Origin: an uncultured Oscillibacter sp. | GTDB lineage: Bacteria; Bacillota; Clostridia; Oscillospirales; Oscillospiraceae | Direction: 5' to 3' | Assembly: GCA_947577075.1 (NCBI GenBank) | Contig: CANPTW010000003.1 | Coordinates: forward strand, 1-64,000 | DNA length: 64,000 bases | Shown here: piece by piece, positions 55,620 to 60,787 of the stretch | How the letters are laid out: every line of letters starts with the position of its first letter | Numbering within the stretch: position 1 is the stretch's first letter | The notes under the pieces: model-generated | The model's input: only the letters and a program-made list of their open reading frames with translations | Database searches by the model: none | What the model was told of the DNA's origin: nothing | Program-made: the position numbers and the translations under genes

Positions 55620-55751
55620 CTCCCTTGCCGGCATGATTCCTGAGGATTGTGAAACATGTTTGAGATGCGCCGGCGGGCCTGCAGATGTTTGCCCTGCCTC
55701 CGGGAAAAGCTTGCCCGGAAATCCGCACGGCCGGTTTATGGGGACAGGTCC
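55620..55751 (+). repeat. Family A MITE-like repeat, copy A6 (left end lost)
   Basis: Aligns from the middle arm (GAAACATGTTTGAG..GCGCCGGCGGG) through GCAGATGTTTGCCCTGCCTC to the right end TTTATGGGGACAGGTCC. The left terminal repeat is not recognisable. The right end overlaps the SirTM gene by 16 bases and supplies its last codons and TAA. Confidence 0.7.
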
Positions 55752-56623
55752 TGGGAACAAAGGGCGTTCAGCAGTTCGCCAATATCCGTATTTAGGCATA
55801 AGCTGCGTCCTTCCAGCGCATGGGGGGCATACGCCTGTCCTTGATTGACGCAGACATAGAACGCGCCGGGGTTTTGCAGGGTCCGCATCCAGAAGGGGTA
55901 TTTGATGATGCCCGGCGTGTTGCCGCCCACGCCCAGCTCCAGGTACAGAACGCTGCCCTCCCGGTGACGGCGGAGGTACTCCCCGTACCGCTCCGCGGCG
56001 GCATGCCAGCCCGCGTCCTGGACAAACGTGCCGTCCGAACGGAGATTCATTGCCGCGGGCTTTCCGCAGCGGGGACAGCGGGGGACCAGCTCGCTGGGAA
56101 TCCGCATGTTTTCCTGCCGCTCCACCATCTGCCGGACAAGCGCCTCGTTTTCAAAGGTCTCCTGGCAGCAAGGCTCCGAGCATTGGAACAGGCCGTAGTC
56201 CCCCTGGGTGTAAAACAGCCGCGTCTTGTCAAAGCCCGCTTTCTGAAAGCAGTGGTCCACATTGGTGGTCAGGACAAAGCAATCCTTGTCCCGCACCAGC
56301 TTCTCCAGGGTTTCATATATCGGCTTCGGCGGGGGCAGGCAGCGGTTGACGTAAATATACCGGCTCCAGTAGGCCCAGAAGATCTCCGGCTCCGGAAACG
56401 GGTAGAAGCCGCCGGAGTACATATCCCGGAAGCCGTACCGGGCGGCAAAATCGGAGAAATACCTCTCGAAGCGCGCCCCGGTATAGACGAACCCGGCGGA
56501 GGCGGACAGCCCCGCCCCGGCGCCGATGAGAACCGCGTCCGCGTCCTCCAGAATGCGGCGAAAGCGCTCAATTTCCCGCGAGGAGCTCTTTGTAGATTGA
56601 GTAGTCCGCGTCCTTGAAAACAT
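55736..56623 (-). CDS. SirTM-class sirtuin (protein ADP-ribosyltransferase type)
   Basis: 295 residues. The NAD+ loop is GAGAGLSASAG (34-44), followed by TTNVDHCFQKAG (Asn121, Asp123). Where normal sirtuins have the catalytic His, this protein has Gln140 (TQGDYG). That swap defines the SirTM class, which ADP-ribosylates protein rather than deacylating it. A zinc ribbon is formed by CSEPCC (148-153) and CPRCGK. The start overlaps the macrodomain gene by 56 bases, as in staphylococcal and streptococcal pairs. The final residues (DLSP) and stop are repeat A6 DNA, so the native C-terminus may have been replaced. Confidence 0.9.
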   Translation of the reverse strand: MFSRTRTTQSTKSSSREIERFRRILEDADAVLIGAGAGLSASAGFVYTGARFERYFSDFAARYGFRDMYSGGFYPFPEPEIFWAYWSRYIYVNRCLPPPKPIYETLEKLVRDKDCFVLTTNVDHCFQKAGFDKTRLFYTQGDYGLFQCSEPCCQETFENEALVRQMVERQENMRIPSELVPRCPRCGKPAAMNLRSDGTFVQDAGWHAAAERYGEYLRRHREGSVLYLELGVGGNTPGIIKYPFWMRTLQNPGAFYVCVNQGQAYAPHALEGRSLCLNTDIGELLNALCSQDLSP

Positions 56624-57347
56624 TGAAAATCACCTTCTTTACGGATGTCGGCTCCTGAAGGAACTGCCGCACCGTCTTCACGGCAATTTCGGCGGCCTCA
56701 CGGTTGGGAAAGCGGAACTCCCCGGTGGAGATGCAGCAGAAGGCCACGCTCTCCAGCCCGTGTTCCGCCGCCAGGGTCAGGCAGGAACGGTAGCAGGAGG
56801 CCAGCAGTTCCCGGTCCTCCGGCGTCGTCCTGCCCCGAATGATGGGGCCGACCGTGTGAAGAATATGCTTGCAGGGCAGGTTGTAAGCCCCCGTGATTTT
56901 GGCCCGGCCGGGCTTTTCGGCGCAGCCCTGGGCTTCCATGATCGCGGCGCACTCCTGCCGGAGCTGCACCCCGGCGCAGGTGTGGATGCAGTTATCGATG
57001 CAGCGGTGGCAGGGAATGTAGCAGCCTGTCATCCCGGAGTTTGCGGCGTTGACAATCGCATCGCAGCGGAGCGTCGTGATATCTCCCTGCCAAAGATACA
57101 GCCCCTCGGCGATGGGCGTCAAGTCCTCCGGGCCGACGACGTCCTTTTTGCGGAGCTCCTCCCGGAGATACGCGTCCTGCACCGCCAGGAAGTCCGGACC
57201 GGCGGCCCGGGCCGGACGGACGTTCAGCAGGGAGCGGAGCAGCCGCTTCTGCGCGTCCGCCCCGGGCGGGACGGCCAGCTTCCGGTATTCCCGTTCCTCG
57301 GACAGCAGGCGCCTGATGAGGAACCGCCGTTTTTCAGCCTGGGTCAT
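56568..57347 (-). CDS. Zn-dependent macrodomain protein-ADP-ribose hydrolase
   Basis: 259 residues. An extra N-terminal helical part (about 1-75) precedes the macrodomain with VNAANSGMTG (100-107) and the cysteine/histidine-rich loop CYIPCHRCIDNCIHTCAG (109-126). That loop holds the zinc of Zn-Macro proteins. Members remove mono-ADP-ribose from targets modified by SirTM. The start overlaps the MDR gene by 14 bases with AAGGGAG upstream, and the end overlaps the sirtuin gene. In staphylococci the target is a lipoylated GcvH-like protein. None is encoded here. Confidence 0.92.
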   Translation of the reverse strand: MTQAEKRRFLIRRLLSEEREYRKLAVPPGADAQKRLLRSLLNVRPARAAGPDFLAVQDAYLREELRKKDVVGPEDLTPIAEGLYLWQGDITTLRCDAIVNAANSGMTGCYIPCHRCIDNCIHTCAGVQLRQECAAIMEAQGCAEKPGRAKITGAYNLPCKHILHTVGPIIRGRTTPEDRELLASCYRSCLTLAAEHGLESVAFCCISTGEFRFPNREAAEIAVKTVRQFLQEPTSVKKVIFNVFKDADYSIYKELLAGN

Positions 57348-58326
57348 AAAAACTCCCTTCTCCGTCCAGCTCCACGACAATTTTTCCCTCCGCCGTCCCG
57401 CTGTCCAGGGCCTTGCAGGCGGCGGCGATATCGTCAAAGCGGAAACGCGCGCCAATCCCGGGCCGGAGCCGGTGCTTTTTCAGGAAGGCAAACATGGCGT
57501 CCATGCTCTCCCGGGTGGGGTTGTTGCTGAAAAACCCGGTGAGGTACACGCCGTTTGGAATGTCCTTGATGGGATCGAAGCCCTCCAGCGTAAACACGCC
57601 CCCCAGGATGCCGGTGCTGCAGACGACGCCGCCCGTTTCCACGCACCGCAGGGTATCGGAGAGGGTCTTCGGCCCCACCAGCTCCAGGGCCTTCGTTACG
57701 CCGCTGAAGGTCCCGGCCAGCGCGCCGGAGTCCAGGACGGCCCGGTCCGCCTCGTTCAGCAGGGGCAGCTTCCGCTCCCGGTGGGTCGTGGCGATCACAC
57801 AGCAGCCCAGGGCCTTGGCGATCCGGATGGCCGCGAGGCCCAGCGCGCAGGTGCCGCCCCGCACCAGAAGGGTGTCGCGGGGCTTGAGGCGCAGACACGC
57901 AAACAGGGATCCCCAGGCGGTGAAGCAGGTTTCCGGAACGGCGGCAAGCTGCGCCCAGGGCAGGCTGCTGTTCACGGGAAACACGTGGGAAACCGGCAGA
58001 AGGGCGTATTCGGCATAGCTGCCGTGGAAGCAGCGGCCCATGCCGCCCATAAGCGCCGCCACCCTTTGCCCGGCCGCCCACCCGCTGTCCGACGGGCAGG
58101 CGATTTCCCCCACGCATTCAATGCCGGGGATGATGGGCTTTTGGATGTAGTCCGCCCGGATCTCGCCGAGCCGCAGCAGCCCCTCGGAGTGATTCAGGCC
58201 GAAGGCCCGGACCTTCACCAGCACCCAGCCAGGGCGGACCTTCGGGACCGGGACTTCCGTCAGGCGGACGTCCTCCGGGGCGGTGGGCCCGGTCAGCACC
58301 ACGGCCTTCATGGTTTTCGGAATCAT
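57334..58326 (-). CDS. MDR-superfamily oxidoreductase (quinone-reductase-like)
   Basis: 330 residues, medium-chain dehydrogenase fold without clear structural zinc cysteines. Conserved pieces are PGIECVGEI, VPETCFTAWGSLF and the NADPH loop GGTCALGLAAIRIAKALG, then EGKIVVELD near the end, typical of zeta-crystallin/quinone reductases. Starts 13 bases after the flavin/ferredoxin gene and overlaps the macrodomain gene by 14 bases, so it is an integral part of the operon. Substrate not known. Confidence 0.88.
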   Translation of the reverse strand: MIPKTMKAVVLTGPTAPEDVRLTEVPVPKVRPGWVLVKVRAFGLNHSEGLLRLGEIRADYIQKPIIPGIECVGEIACPSDSGWAAGQRVAALMGGMGRCFHGSYAEYALLPVSHVFPVNSSLPWAQLAAVPETCFTAWGSLFACLRLKPRDTLLVRGGTCALGLAAIRIAKALGCCVIATTHRERKLPLLNEADRAVLDSGALAGTFSGVTKALELVGPKTLSDTLRCVETGGVVCSTGILGGVFTLEGFDPIKDIPNGVYLTGFFSNNPTRESMDAMFAFLKKHRLRPGIGARFRFDDIAAACKALDSGTAEGKIVVELDGEGSFYDPG

Positions 58327-58339
58327 AACGCCGCCCTCT

Positions 58340-58945
58340 CTACAGCCGCTCCACCGCCTGCGCCGGGCAGCGCTCGAAGCAGGCGCCGCAGTGGAGGCAG
58401 TTTTCAGGCCGGATGCGGAACGGCGTTCCCGCCTCAATTGCACGTTGCGGACAAACGGACCGGCAGCCGCCGCAGCCGATGCAGCGGTCCGTAATGCGGA
58501 AGCCCTTCGGTACGGCCTTTCCCCCGTTCACGGTGTAGGTTTCCCGAAAAATCGGGCGGACGCCCAGATTGAAATACTCCATGGCCATATCCCGGATTTC
58601 AAAGATGATGCCGATGCTCCGGGTGCCGCCGGGGTAGACGTTGGCCAGATAGGGCTGTTCCGCGAAAATCACGTCCATCCACCGCTCCTGGTCCGCGGCG
58701 GGAATGGCCTTCCCGGTAAGGCGGATCATTTCGTTAAACCTCGTGTGCCCCAGAAGCTGCACCCTTCCGTCCCGCTCCAGCTCCCTGCAGAAGGACTTGC
58801 CCCGGGCGGTAAAGAAATAGAGCGCGTCCGGCTCATAGTGGATTGCGCTGACACAGCGGAGCTGCGGCGCGCCCTCCGCGTCCACGGTGGCGGCGGAAAG
58901 GGTTCCCACATAGCTTAACTTTTCCAGGCAGGTTTTTGCGTCCAT
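58340..58945 (-). CDS. Pyridoxamine-oxidase-fold flavoprotein with two [4Fe-4S] clusters
   Basis: 201 residues. The N-terminal split-barrel FMN-binding domain (about 1-130; VGTLSAATVDAEGAPQLRCV, YFFTARGKSFCREL) joins a dicluster ferredoxin (CIGCGGCRSVCPQRAI and CLHCGACFERCPAQAV, about 150-200). Likely passes electrons between a flavin and iron-sulphur proteins. It begins 2 bases after the radical SAM gene. An attractive but unproven role is electron supply to the maturase, since radical SAM enzymes need reduced clusters. Confidence 0.88.
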   Translation of the reverse strand: MDAKTCLEKLSYVGTLSAATVDAEGAPQLRCVSAIHYEPDALYFFTARGKSFCRELERDGRVQLLGHTRFNEMIRLTGKAIPAADQERWMDVIFAEQPYLANVYPGGTRSIGIIFEIRDMAMEYFNLGVRPIFRETYTVNGGKAVPKGFRITDRCIGCGGCRSVCPQRAIEAGTPFRIRPENCLHCGACFERCPAQAVERL

Positions 58946-58947
58946 TT

Positions 58948-59976
58948 TCAAATCTCCTTCCAGCACTGCGGATCGGCGGCGTAGAAATTTCCGGTCTTTC
59001 CGGCGGCCACGGCGGGGCAGCCCCGGCACCAGGCCGCCAGCTCGCACCGGGCGCACTTCTCAAACTTCTCATAGTCCCGGTACTCCTCCATCCGGCAGAC
59101 CCACACGTCGGCCAGCCGGTCCTGGAATACGCTGCCCACCCGGCTGTTTTGGACCCGGCGGCAGGCGTAGATGTCCCCGGTGGGCAGAATGGTCAAATGG
59201 CAGTTTCCGCAGCTGCACCCGCCGTAGGTCATGCCGTCCTCTGCGGCGTCGGGGATTTTGAACGCGCCGGTTTCGTACTCGTACAGCGTCCAGAGGTGGT
59301 CCTTCTTGTTGAAGTACGTCTCGCAGCCCGCCGCTTCATATTCCTTAAATTTTTTGTCGCAGGTTTCTAGCAGCTCCCGGTAGCGCAGGGGCGTGACGTC
59401 CGTGTCCTTCTCCCCGCTGGTGGGGCAGTAGCGGGCGAAGGCAAATACGTCCGCCTTGTGCGCCACCGCCGTGTCGAGGATGGCGGGAACCTCGTCGATG
59501 TTCGCGCCGGAGACGGTGGTCATGATGACCGCCCGGATGCCCGCCTGTTTGAGGAGGCCGATTTTCTCCAGGGTGACGTCGAAGGAGCCGGGCTTGCGGA
59601 ACCAGTCGTGGGTCTTTTGCATGCCGTCCAGGGAAAGCTGGTATTTTTCGCAGCCAAAGCCCTTTAGCCGCCGGCAGACCTCGTCCGTCAGGTGGAAGGG
59701 ATTGCCCAGAATGGTGAAGGGGACGCCGTGCTCCTTCAGCAGCCCCAGCAGCTTCCAGAAATCCGGGTGGAGAATGGGGTCCCCGCCGGTGATGTAGAAG
59801 TAGGGCAGGCGGTTATAGACCTTGCAGAAGTCCAGGCAGTTGTAAAAGGTATCCTGCATCTGGGGCCAGGTCATGGCGTCCGGAGCCTTGCAGGCGTCCT
59901 CGGAAAAGATGTAGCAGTGCTTGCACCGCTGGTCGCACTCGTCGGTAATGTGCCATTGAAAAGAGAAGTATTCCAT
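58948..59976 (-). CDS. Radical SAM/SPASM peptide maturase (ACGX system type)
   Basis: 342 residues. The SAM-cluster motif is CDQRCKHC (C14, C18, C21) in the TIM-barrel part, with YITGGDP and QLSLDG following. The C-terminal SPASM region (about 255-342) has seven or more cysteines for two auxiliary clusters (CSCGNC, YACRR, CARC, WCRGCP, CW). Such enzymes crosslink or modify Cys/Ala-rich precursors. The start at 59976 has AGGAGG upstream. The precursor gene lies 122 bases before it. I recall a TIGRFAM class named rSAM/SPASM, ACGX system that fits, but this was not checked. Confidence 0.9.
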   Translation of the reverse strand: MEYFSFQWHITDECDQRCKHCYIFSEDACKAPDAMTWPQMQDTFYNCLDFCKVYNRLPYFYITGGDPILHPDFWKLLGLLKEHGVPFTILGNPFHLTDEVCRRLKGFGCEKYQLSLDGMQKTHDWFRKPGSFDVTLEKIGLLKQAGIRAVIMTTVSGANIDEVPAILDTAVAHKADVFAFARYCPTSGEKDTDVTPLRYRELLETCDKKFKEYEAAGCETYFNKKDHLWTLYEYETGAFKIPDAAEDGMTYGGCSCGNCHLTILPTGDIYACRRVQNSRVGSVFQDRLADVWVCRMEEYRDYEKFEKCARCELAAWCRGCPAVAAGKTGNFYAADPQCWKEI

Positions 59977-60020
59977 GTGGTCCTCCTTGGAATTCGTGGG
60001 TTTTGGCTGCGGAACGCGCT

Positions 60021-60054
60021 CCCGAAAAGCGGAAACGGCGTTCCGCTTTTCGGG
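60021..60054 (-). terminator. Strong hairpin between precursor and maturase genes
   Basis: Perfect 14-bp stem (CCCGAAAAGCGGAA / TTCCGCTTTTCGGG) with a 6-base loop, without a long T-run. It could attenuate transcription so that more precursor than enzyme is made, or protect the precursor message. Confidence 0.6.
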
Positions 60055-60098
60055 GACGCGTCCCCTTGGGCGTTCCCGGGGGGACGCGCCCGGCGCGC

Positions 60099-60266
60099 TT
60101 ACCGCTTGCCGCCGGCGCCGCAGGCAGAGCCGCAGGCCGTGGGCTTGGGGTCGGAAGCGCCGCAGGCGCTGGGCTTCTTGTCTCCCGCGCCGCAGGCGGT
60201 TCCGCAGGCGGCGGCGGGGGCGGCGTGGGCGCCGGTGCTCCACCCGATCAGATTTTTCAGTGCCAT
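60099..60266 (-). CDS. ACGX-repeat RiPP precursor peptide
   Basis: 55 residues. A short leader with a hydrophobic patch (MALKNLIGWSTGAHAAPAAA) is followed by a core of ACG(T/A/S) repeats: ACGTACGAGDKKPSACGASD, then PKPTACGSACGAGGKR. There are five Cys, each in an Ala-Cys-Gly setting. AGGAGG lies 8 bases before the ATG. The gene sits directly upstream of a radical SAM/SPASM gene, so it is its likely substrate. Usual gene finders may skip it. It probably yields a thioether-bridged or otherwise crosslinked peptide. Product and role unknown. Confidence 0.88.
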   Translation of the reverse strand: MALKNLIGWSTGAHAAPAAACGTACGAGDKKPSACGASDPKPTACGSACGAGGKR

Positions 60267-60320: not shown

Positions 60321-60349
60321 ATCCTAACACCTGAGGGGGCGGCCCACAA
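60321..60349 (-). promoter_or_regulatory. Candidate promoter of the ACGX operon
   Basis: Minus-strand TTGTGG and TAGGAT with a 17-base spacer, about 55 bases before the precursor start. A weak match, as expected for a regulated promoter. Confidence 0.45.
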
Positions 60350-60370
60350 GTACGCACCTTTTTTTTACCT

Positions 60371-60388
60371 GGTTACCTTTTTGTAACC
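60371..60388. promoter_or_regulatory. Palindromic operator candidate in the divergent HxlR/ACGX region
   Basis: GGTTAC and GTAACC arms separated by 6 bases. It lies 6 bases upstream of the hxlR-type -35 and about 21 bases upstream of the ACGX -35. Further GTAC/TACC elements flank it. A likely binding site for the dimeric HxlR protein. Confidence 0.55.
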
Positions 60389-60463: not shown

Positions 60464-60787
60464 ATGCGGACCAAGGAGGAACTGCCCGCCTGCCCGGTGG
60501 CTACCACCGTGGCGCTGATCGGGAGCAAGTGGAAGCTGCTGATTATCCGGAACCTGCTGGGCCGCCCCTGGCGGTTCAACGAGCTTCGGAGGGACCTGGA
60601 GGGCATCAGCCAGAAGAGCCTGACGGACAGCCTCCGCTCCATGGAGGAGGACGGCCTCGTCACCCGCACGGTCTATCCGGAGGTGCCGCCCCGGGTGGAG
60701 TACGCCCTCAGTGAGCTGGGGGAATCCATGCGGCCCATTTTGGACGCGATGGAGCTGTGGGGGGCGGATTACAGCCGGCGCTGCTGA
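60464..60787 (+). CDS. HxlR-family redox-type transcriptional regulator
   Basis: 107 residues. Opens MRTKEELPACPVATTVALIG with the N-terminal Cys10 in the place used for thiol sensing by YodB/HypR-type members. The winged helix includes SKWKLLIIRNLLGRPWRFNEL and QKSLTDSLRSMEEDGLV. HxlR proteins bind palindromes as dimers and often respond to quinones, aldehydes or disulphide stress. Divergent from the ACGX/ADP-ribosylation operon with a shared palindrome, so it probably controls it. GGGAGG lies 7 bases before the ATG at 60464. Confidence 0.92.
   Translation: MRTKEELPACPVATTVALIGSKWKLLIIRNLLGRPWRFNELRRDLEGISQKSLTDSLRSMEEDGLVTRTVYPEVPPRVEYALSELGESMRPILDAMELWGADYSRRC

Follow-up and report, generated by a model that had tools for sequence, protein, structure and literature searches.

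An ACGX peptide cassette joined to a SirTM/Zn-Macro pair in an uncultured Oscillibacter: a candidate second type of extended SirTM operon

Results

Six genes and a divergent regulator at the Oscillibacter locus

We analysed a stretch of 64,000 nucleotides (the window) from an uncultured Oscillibacter sp., a gut-type bacterium (GenBank assembly GCA_947577075.1, contig CANPTW010000003.1, positions 1 to 64,000), in which six open reading frames (ORFs) on the minus strand encode, in this order, a precursor peptide, a radical S-adenosylmethionine (SAM)/SPASM maturase, a PNPOx-ferredoxin fusion, an MDR-family reductase, a Zn-Macro and a SirTM. Comparison with related genomes suggests that the peptide genes and the ADP-ribosylation pair at the end of the operon belong to a SirTM operon type that differs from the known one. 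The preliminary description of this DNA had given the six genes with their order, strand, gaps and overlaps, and the ORF coordinates agree with it: the intergenic gaps computed from them are 122, 2 and 13 bases, followed by overlaps of 14 and 56 bases, an arrangement that fits the proposed single message for the last five genes. GcvH-L and lipoate ligase, which the same description had reported as missing, were found by NCBIfam and Pfam profile scans in none of the six operon genes. Two features had been overlooked, namely a promoter-overlapping control site and, in divergent orientation, an HxlR-family regulator. The features of the locus are as follows.

60464..60787, plus strand: HxlR/DUF24-family regulator, 107 amino acids, divergent, with an N-terminal CPV cysteine (Pfam HxlR, 104.7 bits)
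60371..60388, no strand assigned: inverted repeat GGTTAC-N6-GTAACC in the regulator-operon interval (read from the sequence)
60347..60361, minus strand: control-site core AAAGGTGCGTACTTG (15-mer pattern and 10-mer matches)
60321..60349, minus strand: predicted sigma-70 promoter of the operon, TTGTGG, 17 nt, TAGGAT (read from the sequence)
60099..60266, minus strand: ACGX-repeat precursor peptide, 55 amino acids (TIGR04341, 45.8 bits, cut-off 28)
59977..60098, minus strand: structured spacer between precursor and maturase, two strong hairpins (-63.4 kcal/mol, z -4.15)
58948..59976, minus strand: radical SAM/SPASM maturase of the ACGX system (TIGR04340, 597.5 bits, cut-off 400)
58340..58945, minus strand: fusion of a PNPOx-like split barrel and a 2[4Fe-4S] ferredoxin (Pfam PNPOx_N, Fer4)
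57334..58326, minus strand: MDR-family NAD(P)H reductase, PIG3-like (Pfam ADH_N, ADH_zinc_N)
56568..57347, minus strand: Zn-Macro, predicted ADP-ribosyl hydrolase (NF003163, 347.3 bits, cut-off 272; Pfam Macro)
55736..56623, minus strand: SirTM, class M sirtuin, predicted protein ADP-ribosyltransferase (PDB 5a3a, 259 bits)

The assembly that contains the window consists of 94 contigs and is 83% complete. On TIGR02824 the MDR protein scored 146.5 bits, under the cut-off of 296.8.

Linkage of the ACGX cassette to SirTM and Zn-Macro recurs across genomes

The preliminary description had proposed that this operon joins the modified peptide to reversible protein ADP-ribosylation, a proposal that would fall if the same ACGX genes were never found near a SirTM pair. 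We scanned genome contigs for the maturase and kept the best 80 of 402 relatives, which are the nearest ones and no random sample; among these, a divergent HxlR was present in 65, a nitroreductase in 50, an MDR in 23, the PNPOx-ferredoxin in 46, the Zn-Macro in 27, SirTM in 38, and SirTM or Zn-Macro in 41 (34 of the 59 loci that extend 4 kb or more downstream). The typical order was HxlR (divergent), ACGX precursor, maturase, nitroreductase or MDR, PNPOx-ferredoxin, Zn-Macro and SirTM, and the window alone among 81 loci had the PNPOx-ferredoxin ahead of the MDR.

We then counted co-occurrence in two groups of genomes, with presence set at E ≤ 1e-60 for the maturase and E ≤ 1e-20 for SirTM (the latter matches include fragments and relatives of 30-45% identity), and with linkage taken from coordinates as the same contig and a distance of about 6 kb or less. 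The order sample, 394 genomes from the order to which the window belongs, had the maturase in 27, SirTM in 94 and both in 23, of which 13 were linked (Fisher p = 4e-12, ignoring shared ancestry). A second family, entered via the Lachnospiraceae locus L055, gave 37, 144 and 33 in 299 genomes (p = 3e-8, with the same caveat), at least 22 of them linked, as the SirTM places of G549, G554, G759 and G798 were not among the matches listed. Over both samples a SirTM match was thus found in 56 of 64 maturase genomes, in at least 35 within about 6 kb. SirTM was also more frequent in unlinked maturase genomes than in maturase-less ones, both in the order sample (10/14 vs 71/367, p = 5.5e-5) and in the second (11/15 vs 111/262, p = 0.019). 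Similarly, 21 of the 25 genomes whose kept ACGX locus has no SirTM carry one elsewhere; at least three of these 25 are order-sample genomes under a second handle (G015/G523, G416/G530, G444/G525). A quick tree of 102 SirTMs from the fetched loci showed 18 changes between lying beside the maturase and not, at least 11 of them forced by starred branches. We therefore rejected the idea that the linkage is peculiar to the window genome: it recurs in the kept relatives and in both samples, and the synteny is kept in dozens of genomes. With ACGX genes near SirTM in so many of them, the proposal does not fall on the ground named above.

One control site is common to ACGX and SirTM loci

The regulator has an HxlR domain with the conserved N-terminal Cys of this family, Cys10 in the window protein, and CPV or CPI was present in 104 of 106 HxlR matches of the fetched loci. 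This Cys is described as a sensor of electrophiles or oxidants (PMC7835342). The Lys two residues past the Cys, which Bacillus subtilis HxlR employs for formaldehyde, is absent from the window protein. In the regulator-operon interval GTTACAAAAA was among the commonest 10-mers (33 of 77 relatives), and the inverted repeat at 60371..60388 possibly represents half-sites of the regulator. The TTG of the core occupies the -35 position of the predicted promoter, which a separate promoter scan did not list. Since the best -10-like hexamer was found 16-17 nt beyond the -35 position at 114 of 120 distinct core sites, the core appears to overlap the promoter.

The core, GTGC[GT]TACTT, was first noticed upstream of ACGX operons and of SirTM/HxlR divergons without ACGX. 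The window has one match of this 10-mer, with 0.05 expected, and the fetched loci (1.89 Mb) have 122 sites, with about 7 expected; GTGCGTACTT had 107 sites in these loci, compared with an average of 2.65 and a maximum of 20 for permuted 10-mers. A core was present within 3 kb upstream in 82 of 95 distinct maturase loci (85 of 100 before removal of five fetched loci, L205, L206, L217, L220 and L222, that duplicate kept ones), and six of the 13 loci without it have fewer than 450 upstream bases. It was likewise present within 3 kb upstream in 25 of 53 SirTM loci lacking a nearby maturase. All 114 upstream sites faced their anchor gene, 88 of 88 at maturase loci and 26 of 26 at SirTM loci. The 10-mer was picked after these ACGX and SirTM upstream regions had been viewed, so that the counts there are partly circular.

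The scans of whole genomes with the 15-mer pattern and a set of 18 unlinked SirTM loci came after the choice of the core. In the window genome the 15-mer matched once, at the operon, and the reversed control did not match. Twenty-one genomes gave 15 matches with none for the control, and 33 further genomes gave 27 with three for the control, two of the 27 sites repeating earlier ones (G530 is a duplicate of G416). Twelve of the 15 lay beside a maturase. Of the remaining three, the first precedes SirTM, the second an orphan HxlR-ACGX pair, and the third, in L247, falls inside an ORF that we read by eye as leuC, an unrelated gene; we counted this last site as chance. The core was upstream in 10 of 18 SirTM loci from genomes with an ACGX locus elsewhere. 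These comprise 17 from the 21 genomes with SirTM elsewhere (G523, G526, G529 and G530 were left out) plus G780, which was included because a site was already known there; leaving G780 out gives 9 of 17. Six other unlinked genomes (L169, L171, L176, L184, L190, L191) had the core in three. In G496 the only two 15-mer sites lie on different contigs, one before an ACGX-maturase-nitroreductase-PNPOx-ferredoxin-Zn-Macro operon and the other upstream of SirTM with one gene between (L191), so that on sequence grounds writer and eraser are separated there yet are under what reads as one common switch. With the core upstream of maturase loci, of SirTM-only loci and of unlinked SirTM loci, the peptide cassette and the ADP-ribosylation pair appear to form the two, often fused, arms of a single regulon.

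SirTM and Zn-Macro keep the published catalytic residues

The nearest solved structure to the window SirTM was 5a3a, SpySirTM (259 bits over residues 14-287). The SpySirTM residues that are tested or described in Rack et al. 2015 (PMC4518038), namely Asn118, Gln137, Arg192, Asn258 and the motif GVGx[NT]TP, are all kept in the alignment, as N121, Q140, R195, N260 and GVGGNTP. Gln replaces the catalytic His, as in class M sirtuins, and we predict this class M protein to be a protein ADP-ribosyltransferase; activity without deacylation would be in line with its class. Among 104 SirTM matches of the fetched loci the QG motif was present in 90, the TTN-type motif in 100 and the GVGx[NT]TP-type motif in 89. 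On Pfam SIR2 the window SirTM reached 19.9 bits, under the cut-off of 24, and a Pfam SIR2 (PF02146) search of its own genome did not list it.

The best PDB matches of the Zn-Macro were 8rsi (268 bits, residues 3-259) and 5kiv (252 bits). Pfam Macro begins at residue 99 of 259, leaving an N-terminal extension, and SirTM adjoins. The protein has a short zinc loop, CYIPCHRC, followed by D-x3-H, and a zinc loop of this kind with Dx3H is described for Zn-Macros in PMC11490716; among Zn-Macro matches of the fetched loci, CX4HXC was present in 84 of 84 and IDx3H in 80. According to the same paper, 8rsi is MorMacro, which comes from a minimal operon and was unable to demodify GcvH-L, and Zn-Macros are the only known hydrolases that cleave Cys-ADP-ribose, with activity on Asp/Glu sites too. 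That a SirTM with no neighbouring Zn-Macro has no eraser was considered and rejected, since 19 of the 21 genomes examined had a Zn-Macro match at E < 1e-60; of the other two, G629 had a match of only 2.5e-32 and G840 none. Three of the 21 (G238, G515, G520) turned out to have a Zn-Macro adjoining SirTM.

SirTM was also seen in other settings. At L261 and L275 the control site is followed directly by SirTM, whose match starts 79 and 126 bases past the end of the core, with no Zn-Macro adjoining; both genomes have a Zn-Macro-like match elsewhere, which is partial in that of L275. Tandem arrays of two to three class-M-like sirtuin genes occur in L233 (1739-4311), L234 (4282-6756), L235 (5471-7125) and L236 (4763-6435), with products 30-39% identical to the window SirTM and no Zn-Macro match in the fetched stretch; in one paralog per array EG replaces QG and TSNGE replaces TTNxD. 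A DUF1848 gene adjoins SirTM in L208 (4702-5625, Pfam), with the same cluster in L175, L187 and L202, and DUF5131-like and spore-photoproduct-lyase-like ORFs, read by eye, were further recurrent neighbours (L170 7032-7907, L205, L212; L191 3177-4106).

The ACGX precursor, its maturase and the structured spacer

Precursor and maturase are adjacent and both score above their NCBIfam cut-offs, which identifies an ACGX system of the ribosomally synthesized and post-translationally modified peptides (RiPPs). The window precursor has five Cys in CX3C/CX3D spacing, with Asp at i+4 for two of them and Gly at i+4 of the last. Over 67 precursors the i+4 residue of 429 cysteines was Asp in 217 cases and Cys in 194 (411 together), and 67 of 81 loci, the window included, had a precursor with a MALxNL-type leader. 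The maturase probably makes Cys-Asp thioethers within the CX3D units, and PapB is described as joining Cys to Asp in such units (PMC9413430); on the PapB model itself the window maturase scored 60.6 bits, far under the cut-off of 340, and by this measure it is not PapB-type.

No terminator was called by the scan in the 122-base spacer between the two genes. Strong folding of this spacer recurs in relatives, with z < -2 against single-base shuffles in 52 of 63 loci, and a T-run of six or more was present in two of the 63. Such structure would be in keeping with unequal amounts of peptide and enzymes. In L249 (G416, contig 102, site 822-836) an HxlR gene and an ACGX precursor gene form an orphan pair with a control site, and no maturase match lies in the 2.3 kb covered; the maturase of G416 sits on another contig. 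Among the matches listed in the open literature there was no publication on ACGX peptides or tying ACGX to SirTM.

The PNPOx-ferredoxin tracks SirTM among the operon proteins

The structure model of the PNPOx-ferredoxin (predicted local distance difference test score 92) gave NimC/NimA-family and PNP-oxidase structures as best fold matches. With its split-barrel fold and 2[4Fe-4S] ferredoxin, the modelled protein is probably a flavin and iron-sulphur electron carrier. At a threshold of E ≤ 1e-15 it was found in 18 of 48 SirTM-positive genomes and in none of 18 checked SirTM-negative ones, the latter all being from the window's family and the former spanning many families. Within the window's family alone the counts were 3 of 6 vs 0 of 18 (p = 0.01). 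In the 18 positive genomes the PNPOx-ferredoxin adjoins Zn-Macro or SirTM in 15, adjoins the maturase in two and stands apart in one. Inside ACGX loci, 27 had both the PNPOx-ferredoxin and SirTM or Zn-Macro, 7 and 7 had one of the two and 18 had neither (p = 9e-5). Nitroreductase and MDR were also tried as proteins that track SirTM/Zn-Macro and were rejected, as neither showed an association inside ACGX loci. Among the operon proteins the PNPOx-ferredoxin thus best tracks SirTM, and by its distribution it is the leading candidate for a partner or target.

GcvH is probably not the target, and neither operon candidate can be the universal one

GcvH-L is, according to a 2024 paper (PMC11490716), the only known SirTM target, those of other SirTM/Zn-Macro systems being unknown. 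A search for GcvH in 30 SirTM genomes gave one clear match (134 bits); eight more genomes matched in part, at 20-24 bits and in six cases above the Pfam cut-off of 22.2, and we take these partial matches for other lipoyl or biotinyl domains. PF01597 (GcvH) gave no match in the 83% complete window assembly; no genome-wide search for a lipoate ligase was made. Since GcvH is clear in only one of 30 SirTM genomes and was not found in the window assembly, a target other than GcvH is probably needed.

The preliminary description had named the ACGX peptide, its maturase or the redox partners as possible targets of a different ADP-ribosylation system. The idea of a different SirTM operon type holds up, as the linkage recurs and the GcvH-L context is missing. 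The peptide as a general target does not, because a match to the ACGX maturase is missing from most SirTM genomes, 71 of 94 in the order sample and 111 of 144 in the second sample; with SirTM this common in genomes without ACGX, the peptide was rejected as the sole or universal target. As 30 of 48 SirTM-positive genomes have no match to the PNPOx-ferredoxin, it was rejected as the sole target as well. Judged by these distributions, neither protein can be the universal target, and the ACGX peptide is kept as the other candidate.

Discussion

A two-arm stress regulon as the proposed mechanism

Gene content, linkage, the common control site and the conserved catalytic residues are established here by comparison of sequences. 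They tentatively suggest, at a probability that we put at roughly 0.4, a two-armed clostridial regulon for thiol/electrophile or oxidant stress, in which SirTM and Zn-Macro switch a redox component, most likely the PNPOx-ferredoxin. One arm would comprise the ACGX peptide, the radical SAM enzyme that matures it, and a nitroreductase or MDR as flavin or NAD(P)H reductase; the other would comprise the PNPOx-ferredoxin with SirTM as writer and Zn-Macro as eraser. The divergent HxlR-family repressor, with a reactive N-terminal Cys, would bind the site over the -35 of both promoters; stress would free it, so that the thiol-rich peptide, the maturase, the reductases and the ADP-ribosylation pair would be expressed. 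SirTM may then mono-ADP-ribosylate the redox component at the cost of NAD+ and hold it off, and removal of the ADP-ribose by Zn-Macro would turn it on again. This logic would parallel, with different parts, that of the staphylococcal operon, whose partners are a dithiol carrier and a flavin reductase. The staphylococcal and streptococcal target is described as a lipoyl (dithiol) protein, the streptococcal one binding an OYE-type flavin enzyme (PMC4518038); the CX3C/CX3D peptide and other flavin or Fe-S proteins may occupy comparable places here.

Several points weigh against this proposal. The inducing signal is read from the regulator family alone, and no upstream core was found in 28 of the 53 SirTM loci without a maturase or in 8 of the 18 unlinked SirTM loci, at least three of which run into the end of a contig. 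No SirTM match was obtained in eight of the 64 maturase genomes, and co-occurrence is counted on SirTM matches that take in fragments and distant relatives, by tests blind to shared ancestry, next to kept loci chosen for nearness. For the PNPOx-ferredoxin, the 30 SirTM-positive genomes without it count here too, as do 14 further control genomes of unseen SirTM status, none of which had a match, and the narrow family range of the SirTM-negative set; a tree-based control of its pairing with SirTM found just three supported independent pairs, which are too few.

The reading that comes closest in probability to the two-arm proposal, and that we regard as possible if somewhat doubtful, is that the genes are merely co-regulated: they would respond to a common HxlR-controlled stress and be fused for convenience, with the target encoded elsewhere and unrelated to the peptide. 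The loci L170, L194, L199 and L201, where the fetched stretch has SirTM/Zn-Macro, HxlR and the site but matches neither ACGX nor the PNPOx-ferredoxin, are in line with it, and so is the SirTM tree, on which linkage was often gained and lost. By itself, however, co-regulation leaves unexplained why the PNPOx-ferredoxin was restricted to SirTM-positive genomes, of those checked, and why it tracks SirTM/Zn-Macro inside ACGX loci.

We consider it unlikely that SirTM ADP-ribosylates the ACGX peptide, whether at a free Cys or at the Asp of a CX3D unit, and that Zn-Macro reverses this, with the matured peptide standing in for lipoyl-GcvH-L. The SirTM match in 56 of 64 maturase genomes, the 411 of 429 cysteines that have Asp or Cys at i+4 and the action of Zn-Macros on Cys-ADP-ribose and Asp/Glu sites described in PMC11490716 all agree with such a target, but most SirTM genomes have no ACGX maturase match, and L216 and L201, whose SirTMs are close relatives (about 0.11 changes per column), differ in whether an ACGX gene adjoins, the genome of L201 (G289) not being among the maturase-positive ones. 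Slightly less probable again is the fuller version in which the peptide acts as a thiol/thioether redox carrier in place of lipoyl-GcvH-L and is toggled by SirTM/Zn-Macro ADP-ribosylation. Finally, a chance neighbourhood or assembly artefact of six unrelated genes, for which the fragmentation into 94 contigs might speak, is refuted by the conserved synteny, with the same genes adjacent in dozens of other genomes and the single 15-mer site of the assembly falling at the window operon.

Comparison with known systems

For a protein switch of which few targets are known, the locus and its relatives provide a short list of operon-encoded candidate targets, and they add a regulator and a control site. 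The ACGX peptides would also gain a likely setting: no exporter or protease is present among the six window operon genes, which argues for a cytosolic stress response rather than an antibiotic.

The NCBIfam names of the ACGX/rSAM_ACGX system (TIGR04341, TIGR04340) cover the peptide and the maturase only. The system resembles the PapA/PapB ranthipeptide, as described in PMC9413430, in its CX3D repeats and its SPASM radical SAM maturase. It is unlike PapA/PapB in that 194 of 429 ACGX cysteines are in CX3C spacing, the maturase stays under the cut-off of the PapB model and the crosslinks are only predicted.

YodB, HypR and QsrR are HxlR-family regulators of stress regulons. The window locus shares with regulons of this type the conserved N-terminal Cys, the divergent regulator and the reductase targets; it differs in that a RiPP and an ADP-ribosylation pair would be controlled.

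The extended SirTM operon of Staphylococcaceae and Lactobacillales consists, in the account of Rack et al. 2015 (PMC4518038), of SirTM, Zn-Macro, GcvH-L, LplA2, OYE and LLM. The window operon is like it in that SirTM and Zn-Macro stand side by side with redox enzymes and keep the published catalytic residues, and unlike it in the lack of GcvH-L and lipoate ligase, in place of which we find the ACGX peptide with its maturase, the PNPOx-ferredoxin, MDR or nitroreductase, and HxlR. With the lone SirTM/Zn-Macro pairs, the minimal operons described in PMC4518038 and PMC11490716, it has the same enzymes and the absence of lipoylation genes in common, whereas the window pair shares its operon with a peptide cassette, and one control site is common to both. 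That SirTM/Zn-Macro pairs exist outside the GcvH-L operon is already known, and the ACGX families have already been named; what appears from our comparison to be new is that extended SirTM operons come in a second type, whose control site is common in trans.

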